Both the position numbers and the translations under genes were made by a program. DNA of 64,000 bases from Antedon mediterranea (lineage: Eukaryota > Echinodermata > Crinoidea > Comatulida > Antedonidae). Below are positions 336 through 60,133 of the stretch, in pieces (positions within the stretch are counted from its first letter, which is position 1; each line of letters opens with the position of its first letter). Location of the stretch: the NCBI RefSeq assembly GCF_964355755.1, contig NC_092677.1, positions 5,337,001 through 5,401,000 on the forward strand. Direction: 5' to 3'. Under the pieces are notes generated by a model that saw only the letters and a program-made list of their open reading frames with translations, had not been told where the DNA came from and did not search any database.

Positions 336-3300
336 CTCAACTTTTGCGATACATTCTGCTTCAGACATAGGCTTGGCATATCCCTCGTCATCTATATTTA
401 CATCAGAGTTTGTCGAAATTTGCAGACATTGGTTCTGGGGAATTGGAAGTGCCATTCGTGTTACTTCTCTCTGCAAAACATGCAATAAATCATTAATTAT
501 GTTTTGTATATTTTGTGTTGAATTTTGACAGCCAACTGGTAACTTGTCAATGAATAATAATTATTTTAAACTCCATTCTGTATCATTTTGAATCAGTTCG
601 CATTTGTCGTAATGGGAAAATAACTGCTTTTGAGTGTCAAGTCCGACCATAAAGTTGAAATTTAGTTGAGTTTTAGTATTAAACAATATTTACCTGTATT
701 CTTGTTCTAGGCCTTTCTTTATTTGTCGTCCTGGTATCACCGGCGTCCACGGTATGCTCTTTGTTTATCTCTTTGTAATCTCCAACATTTGAAGGAAATT
801 TCAATGTTTGATATTGAGGATTTTGATAATCAAAATGGATTTCTTTTATTTTTCTTACCTTAAAGAAACAATACGGATAACAGTAGATATAATATCGATT
901 AAAATTGCATTTTAGGCCTAATTTTCTTTTGTAGTTAACTAACTGTCGTTCTATATTGTATTAATATATTAATAAGTTTTATTGATTTAAAATTACTTAC
1001 AAAAATATAACGGGTTATTAGAAACGTCGGGACGGAGCAAAGAATTGCAGTTAGGGCTACAGTTATCACCACAGTTATCATCGTGCCTATTGTATATAAA
1101 GCATAACCTAAAAAATGCAATGTGAATGTTGAAATTGGCCTATACACAATTGAACAGAACGTACAATATGTTAATTAATTATTATTATAATATATTGGAA
1201 ATCTCACTCTAGTAACAGTGGTACACTTTGTTGATAAAGTTGCGTCCAAATGATAAGTTAAATGAATGAAAATAAATGAAAAAATGTGTAAAATACAGCA
1301 TAGGCATACAAAAATAAGATTAATAACTTAAAATGAATAAAAATGATTCAAAGTAAATATGTTATTAAAAAAATGAACTGTAATAACATAATCTAACACA
1401 ATTTATACAAAAAAACAATAAAGAATACTGTGAATGCAGGTAATTTATTTATTTTTTTAAAATTTATTTATTCGACTTCTCACTAACTCAGTTAGTGAAG
1501 GATCTGGACCAACAGGTGGTAAACACCTCTAAAACGGTCCAGTCCCAATTTGCACAGTGGCTGTGAGTGACAGTGGCTGTGTTTGTGTGGACTAGTACAC
1601 CGGGGTAACCCCCTACTCGTCTCGAAAGATGTACTAGGTTCTTTAAAGTGCGCATGAGCTATGTGTACACTGGACCTACGGTTTATAGTCCTTATCCGAG
1701 AAGACTCGTTCTACCACCAGAACCATGGAGCGAGTGAGCCTCGAACCCTTGCCGATGTTATGGCTACTTAATTACGGTTCCACTGTCTTAACCGCTCGGC
1801 CACTCACTCACTCAATTTGAAATATTTTCCTTTTTAGTCAACTTTACCTGTATTGCAGTTCTCTAGTAATGTTGTTTCATTAAATATTTCGTTCTCTACA
1901 TAACATGTACAATTTGATTGATATATCTCATCATTGATTTCTATAGTTTCTGAATAGTTTTCTTTCTTAGTCACTTCTCCATTTTGCAATATCAATAGGC
2001 CTACTGATGATGTTTTTGGGTATCCCTCTACTGTAAATGTTGCAAGTCCATCTTCAGTTTTTAATGTTACAATGATATCTAAACAAAACAGAAGCTAAAA
2101 ACGTAACTATTAAACTACTATTAAAACACTGCTTGTTAAATCTAAAACACTGACTAAAGAACTTTTTAAAATGTTTAAATTTCTTCTACCTTAACATGCT
2201 CTACTGGTTTTTTTTTACATTTTGTTACGTCGATTAAGCTTTGTTACGTTAGTGGTTAATGTTAAATTAGCGGTTGATTGTTACGTTTACATACAATATA
2301 TGCTCAACTGTTTTCCTTCACTTGTTTTAGCATCTTCTCCTTTAAACTGATCACTTTCTGCTTTGCATGTGTAATCCCCATCATCTTCTTTAGTAGCTGA
2401 CGTAATCTTAAAAACTGACTCTGTACTGTTGTCTGTGATATTAGATCTAGAAGTATTAACTGTCTGTCCATCCTTATACCATGTAATGTGAGGAATAGGA
2501 TAACCATCAGGTTTTCTACATGTAAAGGTTACTGATTGACTTTTAAAGACAGTGCTTTCTGTTGCACGAAGACGTGGTTGATCCAAATCTAATAATAAAA
2601 AGTATCGTCTACTCAAAACACTTACGTTACAAAGAGTAAAGAGAATTATGTAACTTAACTTTCTGTTTAATTGTTATTAAAATAGTTATTACATCAAGTG
2701 TAACTGGAATTTCCATAGATGTGATATTTAATGTGTAAAAGGATGCCATTTTATTTCCATTTAAACGCAAATATTTGAATTACTAATTCTAGGGAATTAT
2801 TTACATAGCTGGATGTTGTTACTCACAATATACAGTTAGTATAGATGTGTTTGATCTTTCAATATCTCCATCTGTTGTCGTTACCTCACACTGAAATCTT
2901 CGTTGAGAGTCATATCTCATTGGCTCTAAGATCACCAAGTCACCTTTCCCGGGTGATGTGATTAATTTAAAACGGTCATTTTCTGGCTTATTATCATTTA
3001 CAAGGTTTATGGTAGATCCATCTTCATTTATTTCATCCCATTGTATTCCAGCAAATGTAGAAGTAACTTTTAAATAATCACAAGTTATCACCACTTGGGC
3101 ATCACCTTCCTTGGATTCCTGGTCAGATGTTGTCACCAATTGACCACGTGATTCTAACAAATGAGAATACAAAACGTTAGCCTCATTAGGTAGTAAAATG
3201 ACTAATTAGAACTATTTAAATATACTATTTTCATTGTTAGTTTAGCAACACAACTGAAATGTGAACTGCATTATTCAAAGTCATTTTCATTTTCAAAATC

Positions 3301-4022
3301 ATTTTCATTTTCAATTGCTCTAGTACATAAACACGCAAGTTGGAAAGGTTGTTGAAAAACATCAAATGACGTAGGCCTACCGTTAGCCTACTTCCATTAT
3401 TCGTCGAATAATGACTGACTACTTAGAAACATAGTAAATATCTAACCTTATATTATTTCATTATAAACAATAATAAAGATATTTATTATAATTACCAATT
3501 AAATAATTTGTAACAATTAGCACCGCCAACCATATCTGAGAAATACAAAATAGTTAAGCCATTTATTGAATAAAAAAAGTAATATTCAACTTCACTATAG
3601 TATTTTAGAGTTTACATAGACATAATGATATATTGCTACTCCCCCGGAACGACCTTCTTCATCCTCATCTTATGTATAATCAGAATGAATTTTGGTTTAA
3701 CATCTAACATCCTCATACAAATGCAATTGTATCGACTTCGTATAGCAGTTGCAATAAGAGACCAGTACTTCAAAATAATGCAAGATCATTCGTAACACAT
3801 AATAGAAATGTCATCTTGCTGGTATCATTGTTCACCATGATACATCATAGACCAATCAGCATTAAAAATCAAGATTGTCATCAAAATCAAATGACACATT
3901 TGTAGATGCCTTTGTCATTATCGATATTTATTTCATTATGATCATTGTTAATTCACATCAGTAGGCCTACCCCACCGATCATAATAAAAAGATTAACTTA
4001 TAAATGATTAACTTACCGCCAT
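336..4022 (-). CDS. Three-Ig-domain transmembrane receptor, copy A (last exon outside window)
   Basis: Single-pass surface receptor of the Ig superfamily. Exons in coding order: 4017-4022 (ATG GCG), 3496-3535 (hydrophobic signal peptide), 2827-3153 (Ig1, V-like, ITCDY and FQCEV cysteines), 2295-2588 (Ig2, FTCRK, ITWYKDG, DYTCKAE), 1848-2078 (short Ig3), 1001-1107 (transmembrane), 694-858 and 336-470 (cytoplasmic). All have GT/AG borders with matching phases and sum to 1305 bases, 435 codons without a stop. The tail exon 336-470 carries DDEGYAKPMSE, a Tyr-x-x-Pro motif matching copy D. Copies C and D end in a further exon coding HYCGQFYD; nothing like it is seen in 1-335, so the stop is probably beyond the window. 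The ligand is unknown. The two-codon first exon is an inference, though it completes a good signal peptide in frame. Confidence 0.8.
1455..1812 (-). repeat. tRNA-derived SINE in an intron of gene A
   Basis: On the minus strand the right end begins with a tRNA-like head at about 1725-1806: an A-box-like TGGCCGAGCGGTTAAG and a B-box-like GGGTTCGAGGC about 40 bases later, resembling a Ser/Leu-type tRNA start. An unrelated body follows to about 1455. It lies between the Ig3 and transmembrane exons of gene A, where the other copies have nothing comparable. The boundaries are approximate and no clear target-site duplication was found. Confidence 0.6.
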
Positions 4023-5196: not shown

Positions 5197-5247
5197 CGCT
5201 TACGCTTACGAAAGTTGACTTGAAGTCAACTTTCGTAAGCGTAAGCG
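5197..5247. repeat. Perfect 51-base palindrome inside the Harbinger left end
   Basis: Bases 5197-5221 are the exact reverse complement of 5223-5247 around a single G at 5222. The arms contain two copies of CTTACG, a motif also present in the terminal repeats (CGTAAG). Just upstream, GACAGGAAACCGGT occurs three times between about 5009 and 5152. These may be transposase-binding or hairpin-forming subterminal sequences. Confidence 0.85.
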
Positions 5248-10279: not shown

Positions 10280-13200
10280 TTGTGTTCTTTTCAGTTGTGT
10301 GTTTACTTTCTAGTAGTACTATTGCAGCTGGGTATTGCCAAAATGGGTAAGTTCCTGTTTAATGTTTTTAAAAATATGTCACAGTTGGTGCTGAAAAAAA
10401 AAGAATTATCAGCTTATTATCATTTCAGTCTTAATATTTGTTGTTTGTACTTACAAGCCCTATCATTCACATCATTTTCACTGTCTAAACTCAAGCCTAT
10501 GGTAGATATACTGTAGTTCATTCTTAACTTACTTTCTTTAATTTTAAGGAGTACATGGTCAATCTGTGACAACATCTGACCAGACAGCCAAGGAAGGTGA
10601 TGCTGAAGTGGTGATAACTTGTGATTATTCACAATTTACAGCTGATGTTCCGGATGAAATACAATGGGATGAACTAGATCAAGATGGAGTAAACATTAAT
10701 CCTGGTTTTGTTAATAATAGAAAAAAAGAAAATGGTCGTTTTAAATTACTCATAACACCTGGGAAGGCTGACTTGGTGATGTCACAGCCAATGAAAAATG
10801 ATTCTCAACGAACATTTCAGTGTGAGATACAAACAACAGATGGAGATATTGAAAGATCAAATCCATCTATTCTAACTGTATATTGTGAGTTAACAAGTTA
10901 AATCAACCTTTAAATAGAAACATAATTTTGCACCTTTAATTTATCATCTGCTGGAGTGGAAATTGTTATTAAATTAGAAAATAGCAACTAACTTTAAAAA
11001 TGTAAAAATTAATAAAAAGCTGAAAAAGACAGATGTAAATTGCCCATAACCCCTTAATTCCAATGGTGTCCTCTTAAGGGAAAAAATACAAATAACAAGC
11101 GAAAGCAAAACACATCTAAATACACTAATACATTTTATACACAGTAATCTGAACACGAGTTAAAGATTTAAAGTAGTTGGCCATAAGTCACAGATAACCA
11201 TAGAATGTGCAGGGTTTCGTGTAACGCAGTGAAGGTTCAGACCTAACTTTTGGGTTTTTTTTTTCAGATTTAGATCAACCATTTCTTTCTGCCTCTGGAA
11301 GTGCTGTCTATGAAGGTCAATCAGTGACCTTTACCTGTAGTAAACCTGATGGTGATCCTATTCCTGACATTACTTGGTATAAAGATGGACAGACAGTCAA
11401 CACCAACAACCCTTCTAGATATGAGATTGCAAATACCAGTACAGAGTCAGTTCTTAAGATTAAATCAGCTACTGAAGAAGATGGTGGGAGATATACATGT
11501 AAAGCAGAAAGTGATCAGTTTAAAGGAGATGATGCTAAAACAAGTGTTGGAATACAGTTGACTGTATATTGTATGTAAACAGCAAATATTTAAAACACAT
11601 AGAAATATTTACAAATCACTATCACAATTAAAGACATTAATAAGGAATATATAAAAAATATAAAAAGATAGACAAAATGTAGGCTTAACTAGGCTTTAAT
11701 GGACTAATTATTGCACTAAATCATTTTTTCTAATTTATAGGCCTACTAACCTAATATAAATACAACTATCTATTAATGAATATTTATTAATTCATAATTA
11801 ATGAAAAAATATTTTAAGTGAAATATGAGTAGGCCTATAAGTTTTTTTTTTTCTGTTTCATTTCTTTTGTTTTACTTGCTTACTATTAATTTTTGTAAAC
11901 AATTGTTGTTTATATTAGATATTAATGTTACATTTATACCTGAAGATGGTATTGCAACATGTACAGCAGAGGGCCATCCCAAGCCATTATCAATATTGAT
12001 ATTACAAGATGGAGAAGTGGTTGAGGAAGGAGAAAATACAGCAACTATAGACATTAATGAGGAGATATGTCAATCAAATCTTACATGTTATGCAGAGAAT
12101 GGAAAGCTTAATAAAACAATGACACTAGAGAACTGTACAGAAGGTAATATAGTATATTGTTATAAGTAGCTTAACTTATATATAACATTGAAATACTTGT
12201 TGGTGAGGCTTGTAATTAATAGAATACTAAGAAATGACAAAAACTAGGGATCCACTGCTATTACCTTTTACCTTTTTAATTTTAAAATTGTGGCCTCTAG
12301 TTACAGTAGATGGTGCTAATTCAAAAAAGACACCCGGATTAACATTATCATACTTTTGTATCATTCTAAAAATCTGTAAACAGCAAGACCTTTTTCTTCG
12401 AAATGCTAATGATGGTAGTTTCATAAAGTTCATGCGGTCACTGTATGGTTGAGATTTAATTTCAAGAGCAAGTTTTGTGGCTTTTGAATCACCAGCAGAC
12501 TAGCAGACTAAAGTATGAATAATAATTGTAAAAACGGCAACCAGATATGTTACTGTTATACCTGTTTCACATCCGCAAAAAGTAACGTGTTCATGTAGTG
12601 TGAATGCAATTTTGAAAAAATTAGGCATTTTTAAAGGGAATTTTTTTACACATTTTTTAAATAATTGATGATAATGAAAAGACATTTGTTTACAGCTATT
12701 CCAGCAGATTCATACGTTATCTTGATTGTGATGTTGGTTGTTGTTGGTTTGGTTATTGTGTGGATAATGCTTCTTGTTTGTAAGTAAACCATATTCTTTA
12801 TATTACTGTATTCTTTAGAATGGCATGCACATAATATGTTAGTTGGTCTTCTCATATTCATCAATATATAAATTTTTCAGATATTATAATTACCTATTAT
12901 AACACATCTGATTGTATTTTTGATTGGCCAATTATGTATCATTTTAAATTAGCCCTATCTTGTAAAAAAGTGATATCTGATGGTGATAATAAACCCGCTC
13001 TAATGCACTTTCAGCTTTTTGTATATCATTTGTCAATGATTTACAATGAATAAATTGAATAAAAGTAGTAGTATAAATGTATACAAATTTTATACTACTA
13101 CAACAAATACCTCAGTGTATCCTACTAAATGGTAAAGTGATATTTGATAATGAATGCTACAAATTGTTGTTCAGGTTTTGTAAACTCGAGTTCTGTATAC

Positions 13201-15134
13201 AATTTTCAAAAATCAGTTTTTAGCCTAATTTTTAATATGAATAGTTATTAGGTTTCTTTTATAAACATTCTTATCTAAACGTTGTTGTTTTGTAATTTTA
13301 TTTACATACATACAGTATTAGATAAATATTTGCTACCATGGCTAATTGTTTTTTATAGATTTTATGTATTGCAAGAATATTGAGTGGAGCAATCAAGATA
13401 TTGATACAGAGACAGTTGAAGGTGGTAATCCAATTATGATGAGTTGGAAATACCGTCCAAGTATTGCAAGGTTCAAGACAGTTGAAATAAAAAAAGACGA
13501 CAAGGTGGTTGGTTTAAATCAACAGCAATTCAGTAGTTGTAAAACAGTCTGTCAGTATGTCTGTTATTGCTGTCGTTACTTTTGTGGATTTTGTTGTAGT
13601 GAATACTTTGACAAATCGTGTAAGTAATTTTAAGTTTATTAGATTATCATTTTATTATTCTAAGACATTTTATGTTAGTGATTTAGGCTTTACTGTCAGA
13701 ACAGTTTATATTTGCTGTAGTAACCTGTACATACATTCAGTAAATTAAATAATCATTCAATTTAAATCAAATCATTTTTATTTCATAGTTGAAAACCAAC
13801 CGAATGCAAGCAGGTGAGTTATTTCTATACTGTTTTTTGATTAATATAAATGAGTACATCACTACGACACTAATAACATTGAAATTGAAGATTGATGATA
13901 AATGTGGTGGTATATCAATGATCAAAAGTTAAAAAAAAACATTTGATTGTGTTAACTACAGAAGTGGAGGAAAAGTTCCTGATGGTACAGAGGTTCCTTT
14001 TGATGTAATCAAATCAAGTTCACCAAACCAGGTTGGCTATAAAGAGTATTTACAACTTAATTAAAAGTTTTACACAATTTTACAGATGCGGTTCCGCATA
14101 GCTTCATATAACCATCGACTTTTCTATGTAACGCAAAACAAAAGACTGTCGACTCCATTTTAAGAACGATCAACAATTGGCAATTCCCACAGAACACGCA
14201 AAAACAAAATTGTGTCACTTGTATTTTTACTGGTGGAAAATTTGATTTCTGATTTGTTGGTAATACATGGAAGTTTCATTTCATTTCGGGCCAATTAGAG
14301 GTTCCATGCATCATGAATTTTATGTGTGAGTACCAGGTGGGGCTGTGGCTCATGTGCTTAGTGTCTGGTCTGGCCCCCTATCCCCTATTTCAACATCATG
14401 GACCCACCCCTGATTTTTAAACAAGCTGATTGTTGTGTGTTTTTGGGTTTCACATTAAAAGTAAATATGCAAAAATACGGTTTTGGGTGTAATTTCTGTG
14501 GTCCACAATACTTGTTAAAGCTTATTAAATTCCATTGGTTTTACTTTTAACCAGTTACATCCAGACGGTAACAAAGCACTGCAGCATAGAATTTGTGAAA
14601 GTGTTTACATTATTTGAAAACAATGTTCTTAATAAATTCTTTTTTTCAGACAACTTCTGATGATTGTGAAGACAGCAAACTTTTAGCAGAACATCAAGAA
14701 GAACAAGGTAAACTTTGACATTATTCTCTATACTTTCAATGTCAACATTCTATGAGAATGCATTCAAACAATAAAAAACAACTTGTGCGTTTAGTTTTGG
14801 CTTATTGAGTGTACTATATTTTTTAGTTTGTCTTTTATAAACATTTTCAATTTAATGAGAGAAGTCTGTGTTTTATTGAGCCAATTATTTTACTATTATT
14901 GGAAGTACAATTGAATTTTCCTATGTATACATAACTACAGTAAGAATTTATATAAGAAAACATAGGAAAGCTTTTAAATGGTTAAACCTGAACTAAAATG
15001 TATATAGTATAGAATAATAGTATATTATAAAGAAATATATGCTATGTCATGTCATTTTTTTAATTGATAGTATTTTTTAGTGTAGACTTTATTAATTTGT
15101 TTGTTTTTGTTATAGCAAAAGGCTTGAATGAAAG
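10280..15134 (+). CDS. Three-Ig-domain transmembrane receptor, copy B
   Basis: Paralogue of A but on the plus strand with a different transmembrane/tail type. Exons: 10280 or 10295 to 10346 (signal peptide, FLVVLLQLGIAKM), 10549-10884 (Ig1), 11268-11570 (Ig2, ITWYKDGQ, RYTCKAE), 11919-12143 (Ig3), 12696-12779 (transmembrane, VILIVMLVVVGLVIV), 13359-13619 (unusual exon, listed separately), 13789-13813, 13962-14031, 14650-14707 (acidic, SDDCEDSKLLAEHQEEQ) and 15116-15134. Every junction keeps phase. The tail lacks the Tyr-x-x-Pro motifs of A and D. The exon with the start codon was not found, because the signal exon is open upstream without an ATG; it probably lies 5', possibly across the Harbinger insertion. 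The reading frame can continue into 15870 and the Ig array beyond, so the 3' end is uncertain. Confidence 0.72.
12890..13010. repeat. Dispersed repeat, copy 1 of 3
   Basis: Shares a diverged block with 16985-17130 and 30415-30530: a TTGATTGG(T/C)(T/C)AATTA core followed by a 'CAT...AAAGTGATATC' section. It lies in an intron of gene B. The family is unidentified. Confidence 0.45.
13359..13619 (+). CDS. Exon-like block encoding an Ig N-terminal half plus Cys-rich end, gene B
   Basis: Good acceptor (TTTTTTATAG) and donor (CGT|GTAAGT), 261 bases, phase 1 to 1, so it fits between the transmembrane exon and the tail exons of B. The first 45 residues resemble strands A to C' of an Ig domain (VEGGNPIMMSWKYRP, then VEIKKDDKVVG), with no cysteine where strand B should have one. 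The rest is very Cys-rich in this frame. In the frame that opens at the ATG at 13557 the same bases read as a hydrophobic stretch. No equivalent exon is seen in gene E. It may be an inserted Ig half, an alternative exon, or the start of a second gene. Confidence 0.45.
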
Positions 15135-15869: not shown

Positions 15870-18800
15870 ATCTGAAATGTCATACTCAAGTAAGTAACAC
15901 CAATACTATTTCGTTTCAATTTGTTATATTTACAAAGTGAAAATTGTTAGACCGTAAATTATAAATCTGTAAAAAGTCTTGGTTGATTAATTATGTATTA
16001 TGTGCGGGTGTGTATAGTTTAACTTAACGAAAAGTTTAAAATTGTACTGTGGACGTCCAGCTGTTTGTAAACATTTGGAAAATAGAGGCTGGAGATTTGC
16101 GGATCTAACCAACCTGTAGTGTTCTCCGTCTATAACTTTTCTCATCTTCTTCCAAAATTAAAGTGCTGTCTTTTTAAATAACCTTGTTTAATAAAACAGT
16201 CAACTCATAAACATTCACTACTCTTGGTTTAGGTTATCAATATATGTCCTTGAGCAGTAAGCATAAAGTGTATAGCAATATAAGCATTTAGTGAATTGCA
16301 TAGAAACAAAATACATCAAATTTACAAATATTTATTTAACTTAAAATGTTTATTTGTACTTAGTTAGTAGAGGAAGAATCAACCTAAAATTTACAAAGCC
16401 TGAGAAATCAGATTCAGGGAAGTACAACTGTAGCATACAGGGCAGTAGACAACAGGGTTCAGATGTCAACAAGTTGTCTGTTCGTGGTGAGTTTTAAATA
16501 AATGGTACTTTTTGTTCATTTTTTCCTAGGTACAAAAAAATGTTTTTCTTGCGTACGAACAATTTTTCGAGACCATTACTGTGATTCTAAACGTGAAATC
16601 TAATAGCGCCGCCTATTTTTAAACGACAACAACAATGAATACTACTGTATTAATTTAGACTAAAAAAGCATTTAAATTAGCATGAGATCACTAGTATGAT
16701 TTTGATTAATTAATAGGAACAACTCTACAACAGTTGGAATTGTTGAAAAATTAGCCTAGATTAGTTTCAGTTGGCTGGCAAAGTTTTGTCATGGTATCGA
16801 TGCCTTTCTAGCCTAGTAAGCCTAGGCAATATGGCTTAGGATTTGCCTCGTGGAAATATTTGTACCGTTCCACTAATTAACATTCATTATTTGTATAATA
16901 ATTTGTGCTCTGGGAAAATAATTCGTCAAGAAAAATATCATTCCCTCAGGGATGTCAATTGTTTCATCTCTATAGCAGGCAATATTTGTATATTATAACA
17001 CATGTGGGTGAGTATTCTTGCAATTTGATTGGTTAATTACGCATCACATGCCATTCGTTATTAGTTCTACCCAATGGAAAAGTGATATCCAATGGTAATA
17101 ATGGTTTGAATGCATGTTAACGAACAAAAAATTGTTCTTGCGTACGTACTGTATTTCAGCTCAAAAGTTGCGGTTCTTCAATTTGTTTTGCTTGATCAAT
17201 CAAAAATGGGTGCATCACAGAACATAAAATGCAGTTTGTGACCTTAAATTAGATCGAAAAAACGTAGGGAATGTGTCTTTAAAAATGTTTTTTTTTATTA
17301 GGTCCATTGTACTATGATTCTTTGTCTTCTATCATTTCCTTTTTACTTGTTGTTTTTTCTTTTATTTTTTTACTTTTGTTCATATCATTTTTTCATTTCT
17401 TTACTTTTATTTTAAAATGTTTGATGAGTAGATCAGAAGTTTCATACAGAGAAAAAAAAAATTAAAAAAAGACGTGTCTATAATAGCAGTAAAAAAGATT
17501 AATATTACAATAAATTAATAAAGTCTATCCCATTGTTTCTCAAAATCATATGATTCTCCATTTTGCCTTGAAATATACCTTAACATCATTAAATAATTTC
17601 GTAAATAAATATTTAAAGCCTTAATACATGGCAGAGTTTTACCAATTCTACATTTATAAATTAAATACTTTGTAAGAATAATAATTGTAATAACAGAAAA
17701 ACATTGTGAAATATCTCCAAACAAAATCGAATCAATTGTAAAAGTTATTTTTTTAAAGGAAATACTAATTTTTTGTTCTATATTTGACCATAGTGGTTTT
17801 ACATATTTGCAGCTTACAAACAGATGAGGAAGTGTTTCAAGTACAATGTCACAGAAAGTACATGCTTCATTTTGTCGAATACCAAATCTTGTCAAAAAAA
17901 CATTTGTTGCAATTATTCTATTATTTTTCTATATTGGAACCATTGTAGGTTTGTTTGTCTGACACATTTAAAAGGAAGTTTGTACATTTGTTTCAGTTCA
18001 TCTGTTTTAATGACATTAATTTTCTCTTCCAATTTTCTCATACTTTTCGGTCTGACAAAAACATTTTCTTTAAATTTGTTGTAAAAAGCTTTACACCCTG
18101 TTGGATTTTTAATAAAAATATCTAAATGAAAAGGAATTATTGGTGTTTGCAGTTTAGTCAAATTACTTATATTGTAACTATGTTTTATTGAATTAATTAT
18201 ACCTTGGTACAGTAAAAAATTATATTGAATATTATAATGTTTTCTGAAATGTTCCCAAGACATAAAAGAATTTTTTTCTGAACGTAATACATCGTTGATA
18301 TAAACTATTCCCCTTTCATACCAATTTTTTAAAAACACTGGCCTTGGCAACTTTTATTTCGTTATTTCCCCACAAAAATATTCTTGGGTAGTAGATGGAT
18401 GTTGTTGGATGCATTATAGCCTATGTTTTATAGAAATATATATAGAAATTATCTTACACATTTTTCTTTGTATATGAACGTTGTAAAACAATACATTTTG
18501 CTATTTCATAAAATGAGGTGAACTTTTGTTTAAAGGATTATTGTTTCTCTGTTGTTTTTATAGATGCTCTCAAATTGGAGATTACAGATGCTACTACATA
18601 TGGGGGAAGAGATGTTAAAATGGTCTTAAACATAACATATGTTGATGATTCAGTTGAAATATCCAATATCGAGTGGTATAAGCAAGGTGACGATGGAGAA
18701 AAAGTCCTGTTGACAACACCGTCAGAGAAGTATGAATATGAAAATGAGGACAAGTACAATGGATATCTTAAAATAAAAAATGTCCAGTTTTGTGATAGAG

Positions 18801-27500: not shown

Positions 27501-27646
27501 TACTAAGTAAATAATGATAATATGCCTTTGAGTAACCGGTAAGTGCATTAACATTGTTTTATTAACATTTAATATCAATTCAATAAACTCTTACCGACTA
27601 AAAAGTGTAGACATTGAATAAATAGGAGTATCACCTTCAAACCCAT
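24520..27646 (-). CDS. Three-Ig-domain transmembrane receptor, copy C (complete)
   Basis: Exons in coding order: 27595-27646 (ATG, signal peptide MGLKVILLFIQCLHFLV), 27028-27357 (Ig1, ITCDY, FRCQIQT), 26589-26861 (Ig2, FTCSN, ITWYKDG, RYTCKAE), 26044-26331 (Ig3 plus a Pro-rich stalk), 25614-25714 (transmembrane), 25095-25250 and 24520-24648 (tail, stop TAA). Total 1329 bases, 442 residues. The tail keeps LYEEPH, a Tyr-x-x-Pro motif, and the end HYCGQFYD shared with D. The middle tail exon of A and D (135 bases, phase 0-0) is missing, which keeps the frame. A probable 5' UTR exon has its donor at about 27958-27963. It is head to head with gene E. Confidence 0.82.
26050..26112 (-). repeat. AGGCCTA-type repeat inside the Ig3 exon of gene C
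   Basis: The end of the Ig3 exon contains imperfect AGGCCTATAGG-like repeats, read as a Pro/Arg/Thr-rich stalk (PKALPTDRPIGRPSDTPTG). Copy D has NACNLK at the same place, so 17 to 18 extra residues have been gained here from the genome's common simple repeat. Confidence 0.7.
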
Positions 27647-27964
27647 ACCTAACTGATGAGAAAATATTTATACTATATTAATGTTTTTGTCGATAATGAT
27701 ACCGTCATGAACCATTAGGAATTACGAACTAAACTAAAAGTAAAGGACGTCTATTTCAAATTAGTTGTTATCGAGACATTTTATCAAGCTAATAACAAAA
27801 ATCCATATTGTTTTTCCGATTTATGACTTATGACTTTACCGATATTTTAATTTATGCTATACCACAATCATCTTCTTCGTTTATGAACATTTTATAGTAA
27901 TTTCTATTCATTACTTTAATAGGCCTATCATTCAATTATTCTAAATTAACAATTAATACTTACG

Positions 27965-29788: not shown

Positions 29789-29790
29789 AG

Positions 29791-35775: not shown

Positions 35776-36497
35776 GCATAGTACTGTATCTCCATTTTCC
35801 ACTTTCTCTGGGAAAAATTTAGAAAAGTTTTTCTCAACTAATTTGTGTCATATGGGGTCTTGAAAAACCAAAAGGTGACCATTTAGTAAACTTAAAAATG
35901 TTGTATTTGGATTCCTTGACCCTTAAAACATATACTTTTCCACTAAAATCATATCCATACATGACGTAGAAGCTGATACTGTATGAGCAAAAATCTGTAT
36001 TTTATGGTGACCATTTTAAAAAACCAAAATGGTTTTTTTTGGTGGATAAATAGTGTACACCCTTTATTGGCCCATTTTAGACATTTATAAAATTTAGACT
36101 AGGATATTGGCAGGCAATATCTATATAATACCAATTTACTATTGCTAACCTAAAGTTGGTTACTGTCTTTTTCCATGCATATTATAATGTTCCTTCACTG
36201 CTACCTATTGTCATATTTATAATGGTTTTCTTCATTGTTGGTATACTGTTTACTGTGATATACTATATATTAACATTACTCATTACTCATACCTATGACA
36301 AATTTATTGTAACTGTATACTATTGAAATATTTGTACTACAGTATATAAGTACTATCTAAATTAGTGCCAATTTGTACCAAACATTAAATTACAAGTGTA
36401 TTTATCTTTGACTTGACATTTTCCCATATAATAACATGCACCCCTGCCTTCCCTTTCAGCACTGTTTTTTTCCTGATATTTACTTTTTTTCCATTAG

Positions 36498-36811
36498 ACC
36501 TCTTAGACATGAAACTGCTTATGAGGGTCAGAAGGATTTTAAGTTACTCCTAGACCTACCAAATCTGGACATTTCTGCTGCAATATCCAATATTGCATGG
36601 TATAAGCAAAATGGAGCAGAGAAATTGCTGACATCTTTCCCATCACATAATACAATGTCATGCTATCAATGTGGATTTGTGGATAAGTCGAGTAAAGTGT
36701 ACCTTAAGATCAGTGATGTTGAATCTAAAGATGCAGGAAAATACATATGTAAAGTGGAAGTTAAAGGAAAACCGGATATATATGAGTGTTCTGGAATGTT
36801 GACAGTTACGG
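36498..36811 (+). pseudogene. Non-canonical Ig exon T4 with a 13-base deletion
   Basis: The domain is clear (IAWYKQNGAEKLL, CYQCGF, KDAGKYICKV, IYECSG), but the exon is 314 bases where its siblings are multiples of three. Against T5, about 13 bases are missing right after the DLLDMK start, between ATGAAA and CTGCTTATGAGGG, throwing the phase-1 entry out of frame. Adding 13 gives 327, 109 codons. The main frame is also open upstream through the intron to an ATG at 36436, so an alternative start is possible. Confidence 0.65.
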
Positions 36812-42800: not shown

Positions 42801-45800
42801 CAAAAAGTAGAAATGTAAAACTATGTAGAAAACATGTTTTGTATTTATGAAAAACCCCTTATTTTTTTGAAATTTACGCATAGAAACAGTTACTATGGTA
42901 AATGTTGACCTCATTTGACCTCAAAATGAATGAATTTACAGGGTCAAGTTTGTCATTAATAGAATGCAGTAGAAGTAAAATTGAGAAAAATTACAAATGC
43001 AATCAATTATTTGTATTTATAAAAACGCCATTTTTACGTTTAAAAAAAAATTACTTTCCTTAGTTACACATAGAAATGGTTGCTAAGGTAACACTATAGG
43101 TAAAAAATGAAAATTGTTGAGAATTTTTATAAACTATCTTGTAAATTTTGATCAAACATTAATAGTTGTAGTAAAGTGGGGACCTGTCCTGTTTGCGTGT
43201 TTTTTTTTTCCAGGACGAACGTGGGCAGAAATCATGAATAATTCATTACCTTAATTATTTTCTATTATAAAAAATTGCAAGATAGCTGATCTACTCCCTA
43301 AATATACTAAACCTAACCCTCTAAATAATCTCTCTCAATTATAAAAAAAAACATGTTCATAAAGGACCTCGAACCCAGAGCTCCAGTGTAATAGGTTAAA
43401 GCCTTTACCACTAGACTAAACATTTCGGTTGGCAAACGCTGTTTACACTAATTATTTAATCTCTCTGCATGCTTATAAAGCGCCCTCTATAATGTTCTTT
43501 ATTATGTCATAATTATTCATGAATTATTCATGATTTCTGCCCACGTTCGTCCTGGAAAAAAAAATTACGCGTCCCGTTTTGCATTCTGACCTCTTTTGAC
43601 CTCAAATGACCTATTTACAAGGTCAGATTTTTTGGGAGGTCTTTCTGTATCTCTTTACACAAAATAGATTAAAAAATTTATAAAAACCATTGACGCAATT
43701 ATTTCAAAGTTTAACAATATTTTCCATCAACTAAATATTTCAATGCAAAATACTGTTTTTCTGGCAATTAATTGAAATAAACCTGGCAACACATTCTCCT
43801 ATTTTATCTAAACTATTCGTATGACTCTAGAGTAGCATTATGACATTTGATTAGCCATATTTAAATTGTGTTTCATGTGTTTTGTTTGTTGATATTTTGT
43901 TTGTATTTTTTTGTATTTTTCGTATTTTCCTGGCAACACAAAACATATGTACGAAATTTACCCCAGTGTTTTTTTCGTGATTATTGTTGACAAACCTATT
44001 GACTATCAAATTAAAAAACCTCTTTGATTTAAAAACACCACTTTGGAAGTTATAAGTACGTTTATGAGGTATACTTTTATAAAAAAAAATATTTTTTAAA
44101 AACACCCCTTTTTAAAATAGTGGTATCAACCAATACATGTTGTTTACACTGCTATAATCTGTGAAAAATGGCAAAAACATCAAAATTTGGATAATTGACC
44201 GTTGTCATGGCAACGGATGCTAAAAATTAAAATGAATGTTGTAGATATGCTTGTTATTGAAATGTCTATTCATGGTAAAAATTTGAGAGAAATCCATTTT
44301 TTTACATCTGCCACCAAATCTTTGATTTTTACAGACAATGGCTCTTAATGTCTCTGTTTTTTTATAGCTCCTATTGAAATGAAGATTGATAATGTTACCA
44401 CCAATGCAGGGAATGATGTTCAATTTACATTGGAAATAAGATTTCTTGATAATTCTGCTGAAATATCCAATATCCAGTGGTATAAATGTGTTGAAAATAA
44501 ACCAGATATTCCACTAAGGCATCGAGGATCACGGTATCATTGTGAGTCTACGAATAAATACATGAAGTATCTTACAATCACAAACGTTAATTCTAGAGAT
44601 GCAGGAGAATACGTATGTGAAGTGCAAGTTAAAGGAGTACAGCAAAAATATGAGTGTTCTGGAAAGTTGACAGTTACAGGTAATATATCTATACATAAGC
44701 CATTGTAAGGACGTCTTGTCATTTTCGGTGAAAAGAGGATGGATATTGTTACTACTACTGTCAATATAGGGAATGGGTAGTTGTCCTAGGTGGTAGTTGT
44801 CCTGGAGGTAGTTGTCCTAAGGGGTAGTTGTCCTAGAGGAGTATTTGTTTTAAGAGGTAGTTGTTTTAAGGGGTTCTTGTCCAAGGACCTAGGAGGAGCT
44901 AATTGTCCTAGTGGGTAGTTGTCCTAGAGAGGTAGTTGTCCTAGCGGGTAAATTCAGAATGTAAACTATTTTTCTAAAAAATTATTTAAACAAAACACAA
45001 AGTACACATTTTGTCATATTTTATTCTTTATGATAATATGGAATGTCTGTTCTGTGTAATATTATACAGATATTACCTGCTTAGAAGTAAAATATAAGAT
45101 TCTACATCCCGAGGGAATGGTATTTTTCCCGAAGCGCTAGTTGAGGGAAATATAATCCTTGAGCATAATATCTTTCCAGAGTGAATGTAAAATAAAAGGC
45201 AATATCTATTACATTATTTAGCCAACAAGTAGAATATCTACTGGGTTGGGTAGCTAGGCCTCCTTTATGTAATAAGCCTGCCTAGTTAGGCGTTGCATTC
45301 ACCTTACCTTGCGAACAATAATATACAGATAAGTACTAATTAATGATTCCTTGGCAATAAAATATTCACTTAGGTCTACGTCTTATCCATCAATAATCCA
45401 TTAATAATAATAGTATTATTATCAGGTAGGCTGAATAAATAATTCTTCTTCGAGCCGGACCACCGGATATTCAGCGCGACGCGTGTACCAGGTTACTACC
45501 GTGAGTATTGACGAATCACAAACAGTCTGTCGTCACATCTGTAGAGGGTGAATAACAAATGAGGACGCTATGTATGCATAGTTTAAATAGTTTAGTTGAT
45601 TAATTACTTCAAGCAAGTTACGTGGTACAGCAGGTAAAACATTGTATTGTGATGATGTGGACTACTTGACGAGTTCGAGTCTCAGTAGATGACTTTTGTT
45701 TATTTATCGCCCAACGCGAGTGTTGCCACACGAAAATTACACAGTCAATATCATCGTACTTGAGAATTTACTGAATTTATATGTTTAATGATAGGGACAC

Positions 45801-47306
45801 AATGATCACAAGAAAATTACTCGGTCAATATCATCGTACTCGAGGAAATATACGATGTACGATCCTCGCAGCAGTAGTCATGGGATGCAGTTTCAACCAA
45901 TCACGTTCACGTATTTACATAGGCTATTTAATATATATGCATACAGTATTTATAATCTGTAATTTATTTACTAACAAATTGTGATGTCAAATACTGTATT
46001 AAGGCAGATGAAAATGTTTTATTGAATGAAATTTTATCCTGACGATTTTTTTTTAGGTCTCATCAGAATGGATATTCCTGATGTTATTACCAATGAGGGT
46101 GTGAATTATGTTAAAGTAATGTTATTTTTAACATGGCGTGATGATTCTGCTATAATATCCAATATCAAATGGTATAAGCAAGATAAAGATGGAGCAAAGA
46201 AGCTGCTGACATCATTGCAGTCACCTGATCCAACCTCACGCTATCAATGTGAATATTTGGATTCAAAGTACAATGTGTGTTTTGAGGTCAAAAATGTTGT
46301 CTCTGAAGATGAAGGAGAATACATATGTGAAGTGCAAGTTGAAGGAATACAGAAAGCATACAGTTGTTCTGTAAGATTAACAGTTGAAGGTAATATAAAA
46401 TTAACTAGAAAGCAACTCCGAGAGTGCATACTGTACCTCCGCCTACTGTAAAGTTCTCCTACATAAGATTTCTCTGGGAAAATATATATATATTTGTGTG
46501 TGTCTTATGGTGTTTGTGATTTAGGCTAATTTCATTACAAGCATATGCGAGTTTGGTGTAATGGTTATGTAACAAGCCTTTTAATTAACAATAGCTTCCG
46601 TTGACTAACAATAGAACAGCAACGCGAAAATAAAACAAGGGAATTTGAAAAGAAATAGGTTTTTTAAACTACTCGCATCAAAAAACCTGTACATTAAATC
46701 AAATTATCTATTATCTGTACATTCATTTTGGTAAAGATCTTAATTACTTTTTGAGTAATCCTGCTAACAAACACACGCGACCGATTACATATACCTCCTT
46801 GGCGGAGGTAAATAAGTTCAAGAAGATGTAAATGTTGTGATTTGTAGTGAGCAATGTAAATAAAGGAAAAATGCATAATTATAAAGCCACTTTACCTATG
46901 TTTTTTTCCGATCTAATTTAAGGTCACAAACTACATAAATACCAGTACTATTATGGACCTATTATATTGCGATAATTTTGTTTGTCATTTAAAAATGTGA
47001 AGAACAAGTTGATTTTAATAATTAAAGCGGCCCCCCTATAAATACCAGAATGCATCTCGCGCTGATTAATATTTTCATATTGCTTATGTGACGCACTGAC
47101 TTTCAACTTTTCTAAATTGATAATTGATTTCTTTTTATTTTAGAAAATTTCTTTTGTTTATTGAAAAACATTCTCAGCAATCTCTAGAAAATTATACTTT
47201 GAAATTATTTTTATTGTTAGCTCAAGAGTCTGAATTGGATCAAATGACACCAAGTGGTCAAGCAGCAGCAGCAGGAGGTACTACTGAAAGAGAATCTGAA
47301 AAGTAA
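36498..47306 (+). CDS. Non-canonical Ig-domain array 2 (T4-T7) with terminal exon
   Basis: Exons 36498-36811 (T4, damaged), 37144-37464 (T5), 44368-44679 (T6), 46057-46389 (T7) and 47221-47306 (stop TAA), all phase 1 at both borders. The last exon encodes a short polar, Ala-rich end (SGQAAAAGGTTERES) without a membrane segment, so as read the product would be secreted or intracellular. The possible alternative exon 47818-47868 is Ser/Thr-rich (ITSEPSSQATS). The 6.9-kb intron between T5 and T6 is filled by a transposon. No signal peptide exon was found upstream of T4 other than that of gene E, 6.7 kb away on the same strand. Confidence 0.6.
37144..37464 (+). CDS. Non-canonical Ig exon T5
   Basis: 107 codons, phase 1-1. 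DVVEMKI start, AQLFLDLEW (no strand-B Cys), TEWYKQVEG, YKFGYV (Phe replaces the middle Cys), YLNIKKVNCKDSG (Cys in the E-F turn), IYTCKV, YTCSG. The swap of middle Cys for an E-F-turn Cys is the same as in T1. Confidence 0.75.
37683..38284 (+). repeat. CTCCGCC/GGCGGAG SINE family, fullest copy
   Basis: The left end is ACTCCGAGAGTACAAACC then TCCGCCTACTG; the right end is ACCTCCTTGGCGGAGGTAA, so CCTCCGCC and GGCGGAGG form a short inverted pair. Between them lie a tRNA-like block (about 37829-37895: GTGGTGAAATGGTTATG and TGGTTCCAGCCCC), two diverged copies of an 'AATCGGATCAAAACTGTGG' section and a CA-rich run. Confidence 0.7.
38199..38262. repeat. CA/CAAA microsatellite
   Basis: Runs of ACACACACAAAC units near the right end of the SINE-like element. 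Confidence 0.85.
39185..39204. repeat. Poly-C run
   Basis: About twenty consecutive C on the plus strand, in a CCA/CCC-rich stretch of the 6-kb element. A similar poly-G run lies at about 90-100. Confidence 0.9.
39538..41100. mobile_element. 1.56-kb non-autonomous inverted-repeat element with GTGACGGAGATGAC motifs
   Basis: The ends are about 25-base inverted repeats, GGGTCATTCTTCAGTAAG inward from 39538 and its reverse complement ending at 41100, flanked by TGCT on both sides (39534-39537, 41101-41104), a 4-base duplication. Inside, GTGACGGA(G/A)ATGAC-like motifs occur about nine times in both orientations between 39735 and 40700. A short open frame at 39949-40212 translates these as VTDMT/VTEMT and is probably not a gene. 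Four-base duplications are known for superfamilies such as Chapaev and Sola; assignment is open. Confidence 0.75.
41151..41701. mobile_element. MITE with AGATGTATTGTCCC ends and TTAA site, copy 1
   Basis: The left end is AGATGTACAGTATTGTCCC, the right end the inverse of AGATGTATTGTCCCTT, each flanked by TTAA (41147-41150, 41702-41705). There is no coding capacity. It is nested in the 6-kb element. A second copy lies at 51643-51964. Confidence 0.75.
41832..43640. repeat. Diverged tandem array, unit about 170-200 bases
   Basis: The same blocks recur in order: CATGAAAACCCCATATTT (about 42017, 42530, 42648, 42848, 43017), TTAGTTACGTATAGAAACAG with GTTGCTATGGTAACACT (about 41837, 42560, 42690, 42873, 43070) and TTTGACCTCAAAATG (about 42620, 42910, 43590). 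Spacing is irregular and copies are degenerate. It is part of the 6-kb element. Confidence 0.65.
43210..43555 (-). mobile_element. Small inverted-repeat element enclosing a tRNA-like sequence
   Basis: 37-base perfect inverted ends, 43210-43246 and 43519-43555 (CCAGGACGAACGTGGGCAG inward), extended outward by a T run and A run. The middle, read on the minus strand (about 43363-43430), has an A-box-like TAGTCTAGTGGTAAAGGC and a B-box-like GGGTTCGAGGTCC. A SINE-type promoter therefore sits inside a foldback element. Confidence 0.75.
44368..44679 (+). CDS. Non-canonical Ig exon T6
   Basis: 104 codons, phase 1-1. APIEMKI start, VQFTLEIRF (no strand-B Cys), IQWYKCVEN (an extra Cys after the Trp), RYHCES (middle Cys), RDAGEYVCEV, KYECSG. 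Its acceptor lies 20 bases beyond the end of the 6-kb element, so the polypyrimidine tract is just outside the insertion. Confidence 0.75.
44775..44950. repeat. Minisatellite, unit GGTAGTTGTCCTAG
   Basis: About nine imperfect copies of (A/G)GGTAGTTGTCCTAG with units of 15-22 bases, directly after T6 in the intron. Confidence 0.85.
45060..45365. repeat. Inverted-repeat element, copy 2 (inverse of 35488-35775)
   Basis: Contains AAGATTCTACATCCC...GGGAATGGTATTTTTCCC, then TTAGGCGTTGCATTCACC with TTACCTTGCGAA and AATTAATGATTCCTTGGC, the reverse complement of the start of copy 1. Confidence 0.55.
45612..45695 (+). repeat. Possible tRNA-like SINE head
   Basis: TACGTGGTACAGCAGGTAAA followed about 40 bases later by GAGTTCGAGTCTC resembles A and B boxes. 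The fold is poor and no boundaries were found. Confidence 0.35.
46057..46389 (+). CDS. Non-canonical Ig exon T7
   Basis: 111 codons, phase 1-1. GLIRMDI start, VKVMLFLTW (no strand-B Cys), IKWYKQDKDG, SRYQCEY (middle Cys), NVCFEVKNV (extra Cys in strand E), DEGEYICEV, AYSCSV. Donor GAAG|GTAATA. The intron that follows contains a copy of the GGCGGAG SINE family. Confidence 0.75.
46402..46812 (+). repeat. CTCCGCC/GGCGGAG SINE family, copy 3
   Basis: The left end ACTCCGAGAGTGCATACTG is followed by CTCCGCCTACTGTAAAG; the right end is ACCTCCTTGGCGGAGGTAA. A tRNA-like GTTTGGTGTAATGGTTATG lies in the middle, as at 37829. It is internally shorter than the 37.7-kb copy. Confidence 0.7.
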
Positions 47307-56880: not shown

Positions 56881-59800
56881 TTAATCATAGAACTGTCCAC
56901 AATAATGTGCTTCTCCAACCTTTCCCTTTTTAAACGTACTAGTAACAACATCACGAGGCTCATCATAAAAGACCTCAGTATTCTCAATTTCTTCTCTTTC
57001 CTCCTAAAAAGAACAACACATTGATTATTATCACAGAGTGTGAGCAAAGTTAATAATAATTGTAGGCCTACAATTGAGTTATCCTTACTTCTGATTTGAC
57101 TTGGGATTTTGCTAAATGTGTCACGAGTATCAGATCGGTAATCGTTGGTTGTACTTACTTTTGTAATGCTTACCATGTTATCAGAAATAGGTCTAACATA
57201 TCCATCGTAATCAGTGTCGTCATCATCAGAACTTGCTAAAACTTGCATACCTTGGTACTGATTTTTACGTTCGATTTCTTTTGCTTCTTCCTTCTAAAAT
57301 AAGATATTAATTAATACTAATGTAAAACTCTGTCTACACTACCGTACCAAACTAGTTTGACAAAAAAGGTGTGATATGTCCAAATATGGTAGTGATATGC
57401 CCAAACCTGTGTTTTTGCTTTTGATACACCTTTACTTGACGTAACACTACGGTCTACCGCCGTGTGGTCTGTGTGGAGTTCGTTGTAAAAATAAACGCCA
57501 GATTGAAGTGTTAGTGATTGATATTGAAGATTTTGCAATGTTGACTTTATTTTTCTTAATCGTCTTTTCTAAAGAAAAAATTAAAAACTAAACAGTTCTT
57601 TAATCTAATATATTCATGGGTAAAAGCATTTTAGTTGAAACTAACAATTTCATTATACGAAATGTTGAATAATATTGGAACAAATACTTACATAAATAAA
57701 ACGTGATGCTAACCAAGTAGGAATAGACCCAAGAATTAATGAAATGATGATAGCTACAGTTAGAACTGTACTACCAATTGAAAATGAGCCATCTAGAAAA
57801 GAAATTGTATATAAATACCAACCAGATAAGAAATAATTCGGTTGCTATGTTGTATAGGGTCAACTATTTTTGACTGTACTAAAAACAGAGTTGCGTTTAT
57901 TTTACTAGAATTCAAAACGCATTAAAATTACTAACGTTAAAATTACTAAATCACAAAATAATCGTTTAGTAATTATATATTATAATTTAATGTTTTTCAA
58001 ATTAAAATGTCAACAAATCCTGAGCATTCGTTAAGTTGTGAAATCATTGCAAAATAGTGTCTAGGCCTACAGAAAGTGCCAGTAAGTAACTAATCCCACA
58101 CACTCTAACCATGGAGAAATAAGTTATTTCTCCATGCTCTAACTAATAACAGTATTGGTAACATGAGCTTACCTTTCAAATTACATGCGTTACAGTCCTT
58201 TAATGTTGTTGTGTCATTAAACCTTTCATTCTCTGCATAACATACTAAATTTGATTGGCATATCTCATTATTAGTCCCTATAGTTACTGTTATGTCTCCT
58301 TTCTTAACTACTTTTCCATCTTGTAGTACCAATAGTGATGATGGCCTGGGATAACCCTCGGCAACACATGTCACAAAACAATCTTCTTGTTTGAATGCTG
58401 CGATGAGATCTATAATGAGTAGAGAGAAGTAATGCCTGTTTAAGAAGGAGATTACAAAATGGTTTTTGGAATTGAAAACAGTTGTAAGGAAACAATGTAA
58501 CATAAGACATGTTCTACATACAAAATATGTTTAGTTGTTTTCCGGCACTTGTTTTGGAATCCTTTCCATTAAACTGGTCACTTTCTGCCTGACATGTATA
58601 TCGGCCACTGTCTTCTATAGCGGCAGCTTCAATCTTAAGAACATATTTAGCCTTTACGTTTATCTTCTGTCCATCTTTATACCAAGTAATGTAAGGAATT
58701 GGATCTCCATCAGGTTTAATACATGTAAATGTGACTGTTTCTCCTTCGTAAATAGTTATTGGTGAAGCATAAAGAAGTGGTTGATCCAAAACTGAGAAAA
58801 GGTACAATAGCGGTAACAATTTACACAAAAGGAAGAACAACGAAATTTATAGACTATGGTCGTGCATATTACCGTGAAAGATATGTATGGGTCTACTGGT
58901 GTTTGAATTATGATTGGAGGCTAGGTTAAGAATATTTTTAAAATACTATTACTATTTAATTAAAAATAATTCGATTAATGTTAAATGAACAAATCTTTCT
59001 TTATTGCATAAGATGTTGCTCTTGGTAGCTGAAGTGAAACTAAAGTTTCAGTTTCGAATGTTACTCACAATATACCGTTAGGATGGATGGACTTGATAAT
59101 TTATTCAATCCATTAGGCGTTTGTATCTGGCATTGAAATATTCGTTGAGAATCATTTCTTAAAGGATGCGAGATCACCAGGCTAGCTTTACCAGGAGCAG
59201 TAAGTAACTTGAAGCGTCCACTTCTTACTTTGTTTTTATTCACAATTCCAGGTTTAATATTGACTCCATTTTCATCTAGTTCATCCCATTGTATTACATC
59301 AGGTGTAGATGTAACTTGTGAATAATCACAAGTTATCACCACTTCAGCATCACCTTCGTTGGCTGTCTGGTTAGATGTTGTCACCGATTGACCACATGCT
59401 TTTAAATATTAATATTAAGTTAAGAGTTTTTACATAACATGTTTTTTACATCACTGAAATATAACTGGAAGTACTTTCAGTATTTTTTGAAGTATTTTCA
59501 AATGTTGATAATGCCACTATTTTACACTAAACTAATGATCTACGACACAAATATTAAAAAGAGTACGCTACCTAAACTATAATAGCCACTTTTGAGTTTC
59601 TCGCATTCCAAAACTGAATATTAGAGATAATTCAATACAGTAAGCGGCCAGCTGAAAAATGTACTTGTTTTACTCTTAATTCATTAACTATATATTTCAA
59701 TGTTGTGTTTTAATTGTGATCCTAATTTATAGAACAAGCTCTCAGATAATTTGTAAAATTAAACATTCGTTATAGGCTTTAAATAATCTATGGTCTGTGC

Positions 59801-60133
59801 CGGGACCTACATTTCTTAAGATACTAGTTTGCATTAACGTTATAATAAATATAAGCTTCTGCTAAATTCACTTATGATGTGTTAAATATTATTTTAAGTT
59901 ATACAGTAATTTAGATAGCCCTTATTTTGGTTTACAGTATATGTTTAGAATTTATATTTATTCATGTACTATTGGATTGTATTGGAAAATTAATGCTATT
60001 ACATTATTACATTAAAATAAAATTTAAAAAAAATAAAATAAAAACATTACATTCACCAAATAAATCAACTCTTACCGACTAAAGATTGAAGACATATCCC
60101 TACAATAAATACAAGTCTCCGCTTCAAACCCAT
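56881..60133 (-). CDS. Three-Ig-domain transmembrane receptor, copy D (complete)
   Basis: Exons in coding order: 60076-60133 (ATG, signal peptide MGLKRRLVFIVGICLQSLV), 59069-59398 (Ig1, ITCDYS, FQCQIQT), 58522-58791 (Ig2, FTCIK, ITWYKDG, RYTCQAE), 58173-58409 (Ig3, FVTCVAEG, LVCYAEN), 57692-57792 (transmembrane), 57407-57568, 57159-57293 and 56881-57003 (tail, stop TAA). Total 1416 bases, 471 residues, every junction in phase. The tail holds two Tyr-x-x-Pro motifs, DYDGYVRPI and FYDEPR, of the kind bound by Crk/Nck-type SH2 domains, and ends HYCGQFYD. It is the most complete member. No head-to-head plus-strand partner is seen upstream before the retrotransposon at 61.5 kb. Confidence 0.85.

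Follow-up and report, generated by a model that had tools for sequence, protein, structure and literature searches.

The window analysed here is a stretch of 64,000 nucleotides from the crinoid Antedon mediterranea (bases 5,337,001-5,401,000 of contig NC_092677.1, hereafter C8; genome size 354 Mb), and positions within it are given in window numbering. It contains five Ig1-Ig2-Ig3-transmembrane-tail exon chains, from left to right A-, B+, C-, E+, D-, with AG acceptors and GT donors at all exon junctions inspected in these receptors. The first-pass annotation of this DNA had described five paralogous three-Ig receptors of alternating strand, and these were recovered, as was the head-to-head placement of A/B and C/E, whose Ig1 exons are 7.7 and 3.0 kb apart. 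Its division of the minus-strand copies A, C, and D (type 1), which share one transmembrane and tail type with Tyr-x-x-Pro (YxxP) motifs (A has YAKP, C has YEEP, and D has both YVRP and YDEP), from the plus-strand copies B and E (type 2), which have another transmembrane segment and no YxxP, was likewise reproduced. Seven interleaved exons of a further Ig family (IgX), all on the plus strand, were absent from that annotation. The features of the window are:

333..473, minus strand: A YxxP tail exon (YAKP)
694..861, minus strand: A first tail exon, ITAM YQTL-x8-YKEI
992..1105, minus strand: A type 1 transmembrane exon
1855..2079, minus strand: A Ig3, one canonical Cys lost
2293..2589, minus strand: A Ig2 (I-set/Ig_3)
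2822..3142, minus strand: A Ig1 (V-set)
3496..3535, minus strand: A leader (signal-peptide homologue), ATG out of frame after 8-nt deletion
10295..10346, plus strand: B leader candidate, type 2, without in-frame ATG at the expected place
10560..10886, plus strand: B Ig1 (V-set)
11267..11572, plus strand: B Ig2
11918..12136, plus strand: B Ig3
12705..12779, plus strand: B type 2 transmembrane exon
13358..13618, plus strand: B 'NIEW' exon, phase 1-1, type 2 marker
13933..14061, plus strand: B tail exon candidate, homologue in 4858708+
14648..14703, plus strand: B tail exon, acidic di-leucine EDSKLL, boundaries approximate
18512..21232, plus strand: IgX exons (3), block 3' of B
24523..24648, minus strand: C terminal tail exon, YEEP ... 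QFYD stop
25098..25250, minus strand: C first tail exon, LQYQEL, second ITAM Tyr lost
25605..25724, minus strand: C type 1 transmembrane exon
26114..26332, minus strand: C Ig3
26587..26862, minus strand: C Ig2
27026..27349, minus strand: C Ig1
27595..27652, minus strand: C leader
30045..30380, plus strand: E Ig1, divergent
31197..31502, plus strand: E Ig2
31866..32084, plus strand: E Ig3
32687..32773, plus strand: E type 2 transmembrane exon
33011..33032, plus strand: E basic juxtamembrane exon, KDKKK homologue
36412..37526, plus strand: IgX exons (2), block 3' of E
44349..46448, plus strand: IgX exons (2)
56881..57003, minus strand: D terminal tail exon, YDEP ... QFYD stop
57150..57290, minus strand: D YxxP tail exon (YVRP), 3' end approximate
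57407..57568, minus strand: D first tail exon, ITAM YQSL-x8-YNEL
57683..57802, minus strand: D type 1 transmembrane exon
58192..58410, minus strand: D Ig3
58520..58792, minus strand: D Ig2
59067..59390, minus strand: D Ig1
60076..60135, minus strand: D leader

Candidate leader exons were found in A to D and none was located for E; the ATG is not kept in the type 2 leader exon. Receptor A is probably degenerating and may be a pseudogene, because an 8-nt deletion shifts its leader ATG out of frame and one Ig3 cysteine is lost; its additional YxxP exons and its terminal exon are situated left of the window. In C, YQEL is present and the second ITAM tyrosine is gone. The partner of D, C8:5416141+, lies 20 kb to the right, outside the window, and is of type 2 by its marker exon.

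When the whole genome was searched with the Ig1 sequence of B, approximately 50 family copies were recovered, of which 47 form a 1.1-Mb cluster (C8:4.70-5.80 Mb), two are located on C3, and one on C4. Weak Ig1 relatives (29-34% identity) occur at C8:1.08-1.59 Mb, and some family copies are degenerate. The cluster begins with ten minus copies, followed by near-strict strand alternation, and each of the 17 plus copies has a minus copy immediately before it, head to head (strand shuffles mean 10.8, P = 6e-5, a value that describes layout and not independent origins, since units were copied as blocks). The arrangement noted in the window is thus far beyond chance. Median Ig1-Ig1 distances are 7.7 kb for divergent and 29 kb for convergent neighbours, and head-to-head distances range from 2.8 to 43 kb. 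The IgX family (V/I-set, 29 matches) is confined to C8, where its exons lie 3' of most type 2 genes, on the type 2 strand and typically 6-15 kb away. Since this position is common, the repeating unit is type 1 <- -> type 2 -> IgX.

Tail types were assigned by reading the 3' part of most copies for transmembrane and tail exons, and then by genome-wide searches with a one-exon marker for each type. Before the marker searches, type 1 stood on the minus strand in 23 copies and on the plus strand in two, and type 2 in three and 12 copies, respectively (Fisher P 6e-6, again a statement on layout; the transmembrane types were assigned from short exons). All 12 head-to-head pairs fully typed at this stage combined type 1 with type 2. 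The marker searches added the pairs 5313441/5317644, 5396064 (D)/5416141, and 5789001/5800818, and 4922640/4927009 is a further mixed pair only if the tandem Ig1 at 4923204 is part of that gene. With the latter included, each of the 16 typed pairs across the cluster consists of one gene of each tail type. No transmembrane type was found for copy 5498111+, and the leading block comprises about ten type 1 copies without a type 2 partner. Near-identical blocks (4749681/5213921; 4787934/4893596; 4956269/5285077) indicate copying of whole units, and the pairs therefore are not independent of each other.

From 4.70 to 5.50 Mb the tail type follows the strand as in the window, which upholds the coupling of tail type and orientation proposed in the first pass for this part of the cluster. 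The coupling fails in a distal block of 0.15 Mb (5.65-5.80 Mb), where the type 1 marker, the type 2 marker, and IgX all lie on swapped strands. As all three markers are swapped together, one inversion explains this block, within which the divergent unit is preserved. The possibility that strand determines tail type is thus ruled out, and the invariant is the head-to-head unit. Homogenisation within pairs was also ruled out, as partners show no excess of identity; Ig1 identity is 0.639 within pairs vs 0.634 between pairs, and the partners are therefore not matched one to one.

The Ig1 copies are 55-76% identical, and identity between type 1 and type 2 (0.63) equals that among type 1 copies. Cys21, Trp36, and Cys88 are invariant. 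Although no Pfam match above cut-off was obtained for Ig1 in the window copies tested, the predicted structure (pLDDT 93) has a V-type Ig fold, with TCR V-alpha and antibody VL domains as its nearest matches (VIA Z 15 to TCR V-alpha, rmsd 2.0, 101 residues, ~20% identity), so that the predicted fold together with the canonical Cys and Trp qualifies Ig1 as a V-set domain. Ig2 is an I-set/Ig_3 domain by Pfam. The Ig1 exon ends with SILTVYC, without a J-like FGxG, and the WYxQ interface motif does not occur in the Ig1 alignment. Variability peaks at residues 32-33, 44-45, 56-57, and 93-99, which fall in BC, C'C'', and FG-type loops, and at residues 78-80; on the predicted strands these are CDR-like loops. 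Pairwise dN/dS values of 0.47-0.58 indicate that the receptor exons are maintained coding sequence.

Trees were calculated for each domain from sets of 42-43 copies, and the AU test was applied to type 2 as one clade. The Ig1 data rejected a single type 2 clade (AU p 0.0013; 10 label changes, bootstrap range 8-11), and those for Ig2 (AU p 0.18; 5 changes) and Ig3 (AU p 0.22; 4 changes) did not. The nearest relative was of the other tail type for 11 of 43 copies in Ig1, compared with 6 of 42 in Ig2 and 4 of 42 in Ig3. This contrast implies that the tip moves between tail types and each stem remains tied to its tail. The first-pass expectation that domain trees would segregate with tail type was accordingly contradicted by Ig1, and for Ig2 and Ig3 separation was not rejected. 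An earlier Ig1 tree with 31 rows had given no clustering by type (8 vs 8.0 shuffled), whereas the tree with 43 rows gave some (10 vs 13.9 shuffled); because these two results differ, the AU test is the one to rely on. Paired receptors are known to exchange their ligand-binding domain across tail types, and rejection of a single type 2 clade for Ig1 but not for Ig2 and Ig3 thus favours an interpretation as paired receptors.

Type 1 receptors (A, C, D, and others) have a transmembrane segment such as GSTVLTVAIIISLILGSIPTWLASRFIY and the stop-transfer sequence KRRLRKIK, followed by phase-0 tail exons. The first tail exon contains an ITAM (Yxx[LI]-x6-12-Yxx[LI]) in 10 of 16 type 1 copies, with eight distinct strings and a spacing of 7 or 8 in every case (shuffled exons gave a mean of 0.08 and at most two in 2000 shuffles). 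The middle tail exon, of which there are up to four or five per gene, carries YQ(G/D)L and GY(V/A)(K/R)P, with YxxP in 24 of 29 exons vs 1.5 after shuffling, and the last tail exon has YEEP or YDEP. An ITIM ([ILVS]xYxx[LIV]) also matches in 6 of the 16 first tail exons, overlapping the ITAM position; an ITIM-like, inhibitory type 1 was considered and dropped, as the YxxL-x8-YxxL spacing test fits an ITAM. Type 2 receptors (B, E, and others) have a transmembrane segment such as YIILIVLIVGLFLWLLLLV, followed in many copies by 'NIEW', a basic juxtamembrane exon, and the tail. The putative 'NIEW' exon would encode a half-Ig-like stretch and a Cys-rich hydrophobic helix (model pLDDT 51); an open frame and splice sites in seven copies are the grounds for taking it as coding, and its codon bias is weak. 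All four homologous type 2 tail exons read contain YxxM, which is absent in B and was not seen in E, whose tail is mostly unread; an acidic di-leucine ([DE]xxxL[LI]) is present in 5 of 6 readable type 2 tails. The type 2 tail exons read contain no ITIM ([ILVS]xYxx[LIV]), and type 2 segments such as the one given contain no basic or charged transmembrane residue. Opposite polarity of the two types is for these reasons conjectural. Established partners are Syk-family kinases for ITAMs, Crk/Nck-type SH2 domains for YxxP, and PI3K p85 for YxxM, and endocytosis is signalled by acidic di-leucine and by YxxM/YxxPhi motifs; the crinoid motifs presumably have these functions as well. Syk homologues are present in invertebrates with CARD-CC/Bcl10 (PMC5978004).

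The divergent layout, the shared tips, and the split tails are properties of the genome sequence itself, and the cluster has the general marks of paired receptors, namely highly similar ectodomains on two signalling types and an exchange that is confined to the ligand-binding domain. Judged by these sequence features, it probably represents a germline family of paired immune-recognition IgSF receptors in many copies, a reading held with moderate confidence. The first-pass view of paired recognition receptors is thus sustained in its two-tail divergent layout, and opposing signals may or may not apply. The repeating unit comprises two head-to-head three-Ig type I membrane receptors, commonly with an IgX gene after type 2 on the same strand. 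As read from the sequence, the V-set tip of type 1 is followed by two further Ig domains, a membrane segment, the ITAM-like exon, and YxxP exons in several copies, and type 2 combines the same ectodomain plan with a different, uncharged membrane segment and a YxxM/di-leucine tail; the V-set tip is swapped across types, with the proximal domains remaining with their tails. The variable tips might bind overlapping microbial or cell-surface ligands, shared by two co-expressed types. Type 1 could then elicit an activating-like Src/Syk-family ITAM response, and its YxxP motifs could engage SH2 adaptors of the Crk/Nck type, as in phagocytic or cytotoxic responses. Type 2 would route the common ligand pool to PI3K binding and/or endocytosis and might tune, clear, or compete with the type 1 response. 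Several observations weigh against this reading: type 2 shows neither an ITIM nor a basic transmembrane residue, B lacks YxxM, partners resemble each other in Ig1 no more than other copies do, the units were duplicated in blocks, about ten leading type 1 copies are unpaired, and part of the family is degenerate.

The pairing could also be a by-product of an ancestral inverted duplicate that was block-copied, with the two types acting as independent adhesion or recognition receptors without functional pairing. The near-identical blocks, the resulting non-independence of the pairs, and the varying head-to-head distances (2.8 to 43 kb) agree with such an origin, but both types are kept in every typed pair despite much divergence, tips are exchanged across types with tails kept apart, and the tail motifs are preserved far above chance, which renders it rather unlikely. 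The nearest invertebrate parallel, fester/FcoR of Botryllus, suggests instead an obligate heterodimer, in which the pair would form two chains with jointly binding V domains, type 1 signalling and type 2 serving as co-chain. Botryllus resembles the crinoid as an invertebrate deuterostome in which two types of receptor genes, with V-type Ig domains and tyrosine motifs, are clustered side by side, and its adjacent, co-expressed, V-bearing FF and FcoR have been proposed as heterodimer chains for allorecognition (PMC12065747). However, FcoR has a sushi domain and ITIM/hemITAM motifs and FF no signalling domain, and among the exons between leader and transmembrane segment, where three Ig exons were found, no sushi domain was seen.

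Strict one-of-each pairing, a divergent arrangement suited to co-expression, and an Ig1 fold nearest to V-alpha and VL, domains that pair, would all be expected of heterodimer chains. Dedicated chains should, however, keep separate V lineages, and Ig1 is exchanged between types; divergence between partners is not matched, the extra type 1 block has no type 2 copies, and Ig1 lacks both the J-like and the interface motif, so that obligate heterodimers are unlikely. Homophilic allorecognition or self-recognition of the Alr kind, in place of pathogen recognition, is very unlikely. The Hydractinia complex has clustered, diversified Ig receptors with ITAM/ITIM-like tails (PMC12065747), but the crinoid is probably solitary, with no known colony fusion, and homophilic allelic matching does not need tip exchange between tail types. 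The Alr genes of Hydractinia and Podocoryna (22 genes in the latter; PMC13119343) share clustering, IgSF domains, and such tails with the crinoid cluster but are cnidarian, and strict head-to-head pairing of two types is not reported in PMC12065747 or PMC13119343. The probabilities assigned to the four readings overlap in part.

For the paired-receptor reading, the nearest precedents are the SIGLEC11/SIGLEC16 and CEACAM pairs. SIGLEC11 and SIGLEC16 lie head to head ~9 kb apart, have a V-set tip, and have ectodomain exons homogenised between signalling types (PMC5701461), and the crinoid cluster shares the head-to-head layout, the V-set tip, and the ectodomain exchange across two signalling types. 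They differ in being one pair of an ITIM receptor and a partner using an ITAM adaptor, whereas the crinoid has at least 16 pairs, in which one type bears an ITAM in its tail and the other type YxxM/di-leucine; beyond the Ig fold, the two systems showed no relationship in sequence. In CEACAMs the distal, V-like N domain is exchanged between members with different tyrosine-motif tails, and tail exons are modular, according to the passages considered of PMC2832619, which describe no repeated divergent cassette; ITIM/ITAM pairing and the domain plan also set them apart. The KIR, LILR, FcR-like, and XFL families are similar as large Ig clusters with two transmembrane/tail classes on similar ectodomains (PMC2413239), but their inhibitory ITIM class and basic-transmembrane class were both not found in the crinoid cluster; type 1 carries its own ITAM, a departure also from the Siglec-type arrangement.

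The best-known paired receptors are those of vertebrate leukocytes, where they balance immune responses, and the cluster addresses whether shared tips, split tails, and binding-domain conversion also arise in other animals. It displays the genomic signature of paired receptors in an echinoderm, with the ITAM within the receptor itself; in the open-access literature, no publication on crinoid paired receptors was found. More tentatively, an invertebrate deuterostome may have independently evolved multi-pair divergent ITAM and PI3K/endocytic receptors with one pool of V-set tips and a three-gene cassette of type 1, type 2, and IgX. If so, the counter-receptor would work via internalisation or PI3K and not via ITIM phosphatases. 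The 16 pairs offer natural replicates, and the inverted block is an internal control for strand effects.

Apart from the receptors, the genome has one Hox cluster of 0.38 Mb with twelve homeodomains (Hox1-8, 9/10, 11/13a, 11/13b, which is inverted, and 11/13c), a class set that we take to be ambulacrarian. Cnidarian and lophotrochozoan affinities of the genome had been considered and were discarded once these homeodomains were read; a search for COX1 gave no hit. Homeobox matches together with contig sizes point to 11 large chromosomes, a number in keeping with crinoids. Hox4, which is missing in sea urchins (PMC3308324), is present in the crinoid cluster.

The distal block of the receptor cluster (C8:5.65-5.80 Mb, on the same contig as the window) is switched in strand jointly for type 1 genes (ITAM/YxxP tail), type 2 genes (YxxM/di-leucine tail) and IgX, a second Ig family interleaved in the cluster. 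Because all three gene types swap strand together, this pattern points to one segmental inversion within the cluster. A search of the whole genome yielded 29 IgX matches, exclusively on C8, and most type 2 genes are accompanied by IgX located 3′ on the shared strand; no membrane anchor and tail belonging to IgX were found. The window contains the following features:

1-336, minus strand: non-LTR reverse-transcriptase element fragment
13358-13618, plus strand: 'NIEW' exon, with 18 further sites in the genome
17518-18353, minus strand: non-LTR reverse-transcriptase element fragment (zf-RVT match at 17518-17928)
18512-21232, plus strand: IgX exons (V/I-set Ig family)
36412-37526, plus strand: IgX exons (same family)
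44349-46448, plus strand: IgX exons (same family)

The strongly conserved 'NIEW' exon (phase 1-1), which some type 2 genes lack, is half-Ig-like at its start and continues as a hydrophobic helix rich in Cys; it may represent an alternative membrane anchor. Two exons for the third Ig domain (Ig3) were present in the receptor copies C8:5289371+, 5317644+, 5416141+ and 5313441- (named by position and strand of Ig1, the distal V-set exon), and the domain number is therefore not three in every case.

Elsewhere in the genome, Ig_2 matches were located as follows:

C8:0.46-1.63 Mb: dense exon cluster
C4:23.19-23.21 Mb: dense exon cluster
C2:12.58-12.86 Mb: dense exon cluster
C11:16.16 Mb: dense exon cluster
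C5:20.71-20.78 Mb: within long open frame
C9:22.13 Mb: within long open frame
C10:4.10-4.15 Mb: within long open frame
C6:22.91 Mb: within long open frame
C1:24.08 Mb: within long open frame

Similarity of the exon cluster at C8:1.08-1.59 Mb to Ig1 is weak (29-34%). The long open frames (~1340-1380 codons, one of 842) apparently encode large Ig proteins without introns at several loci. The Hox cluster (C2:7.83-8.21 Mb) is compact, its 12 genes lying on a single strand except for one posterior gene, an unusually regular order for an echinoderm.
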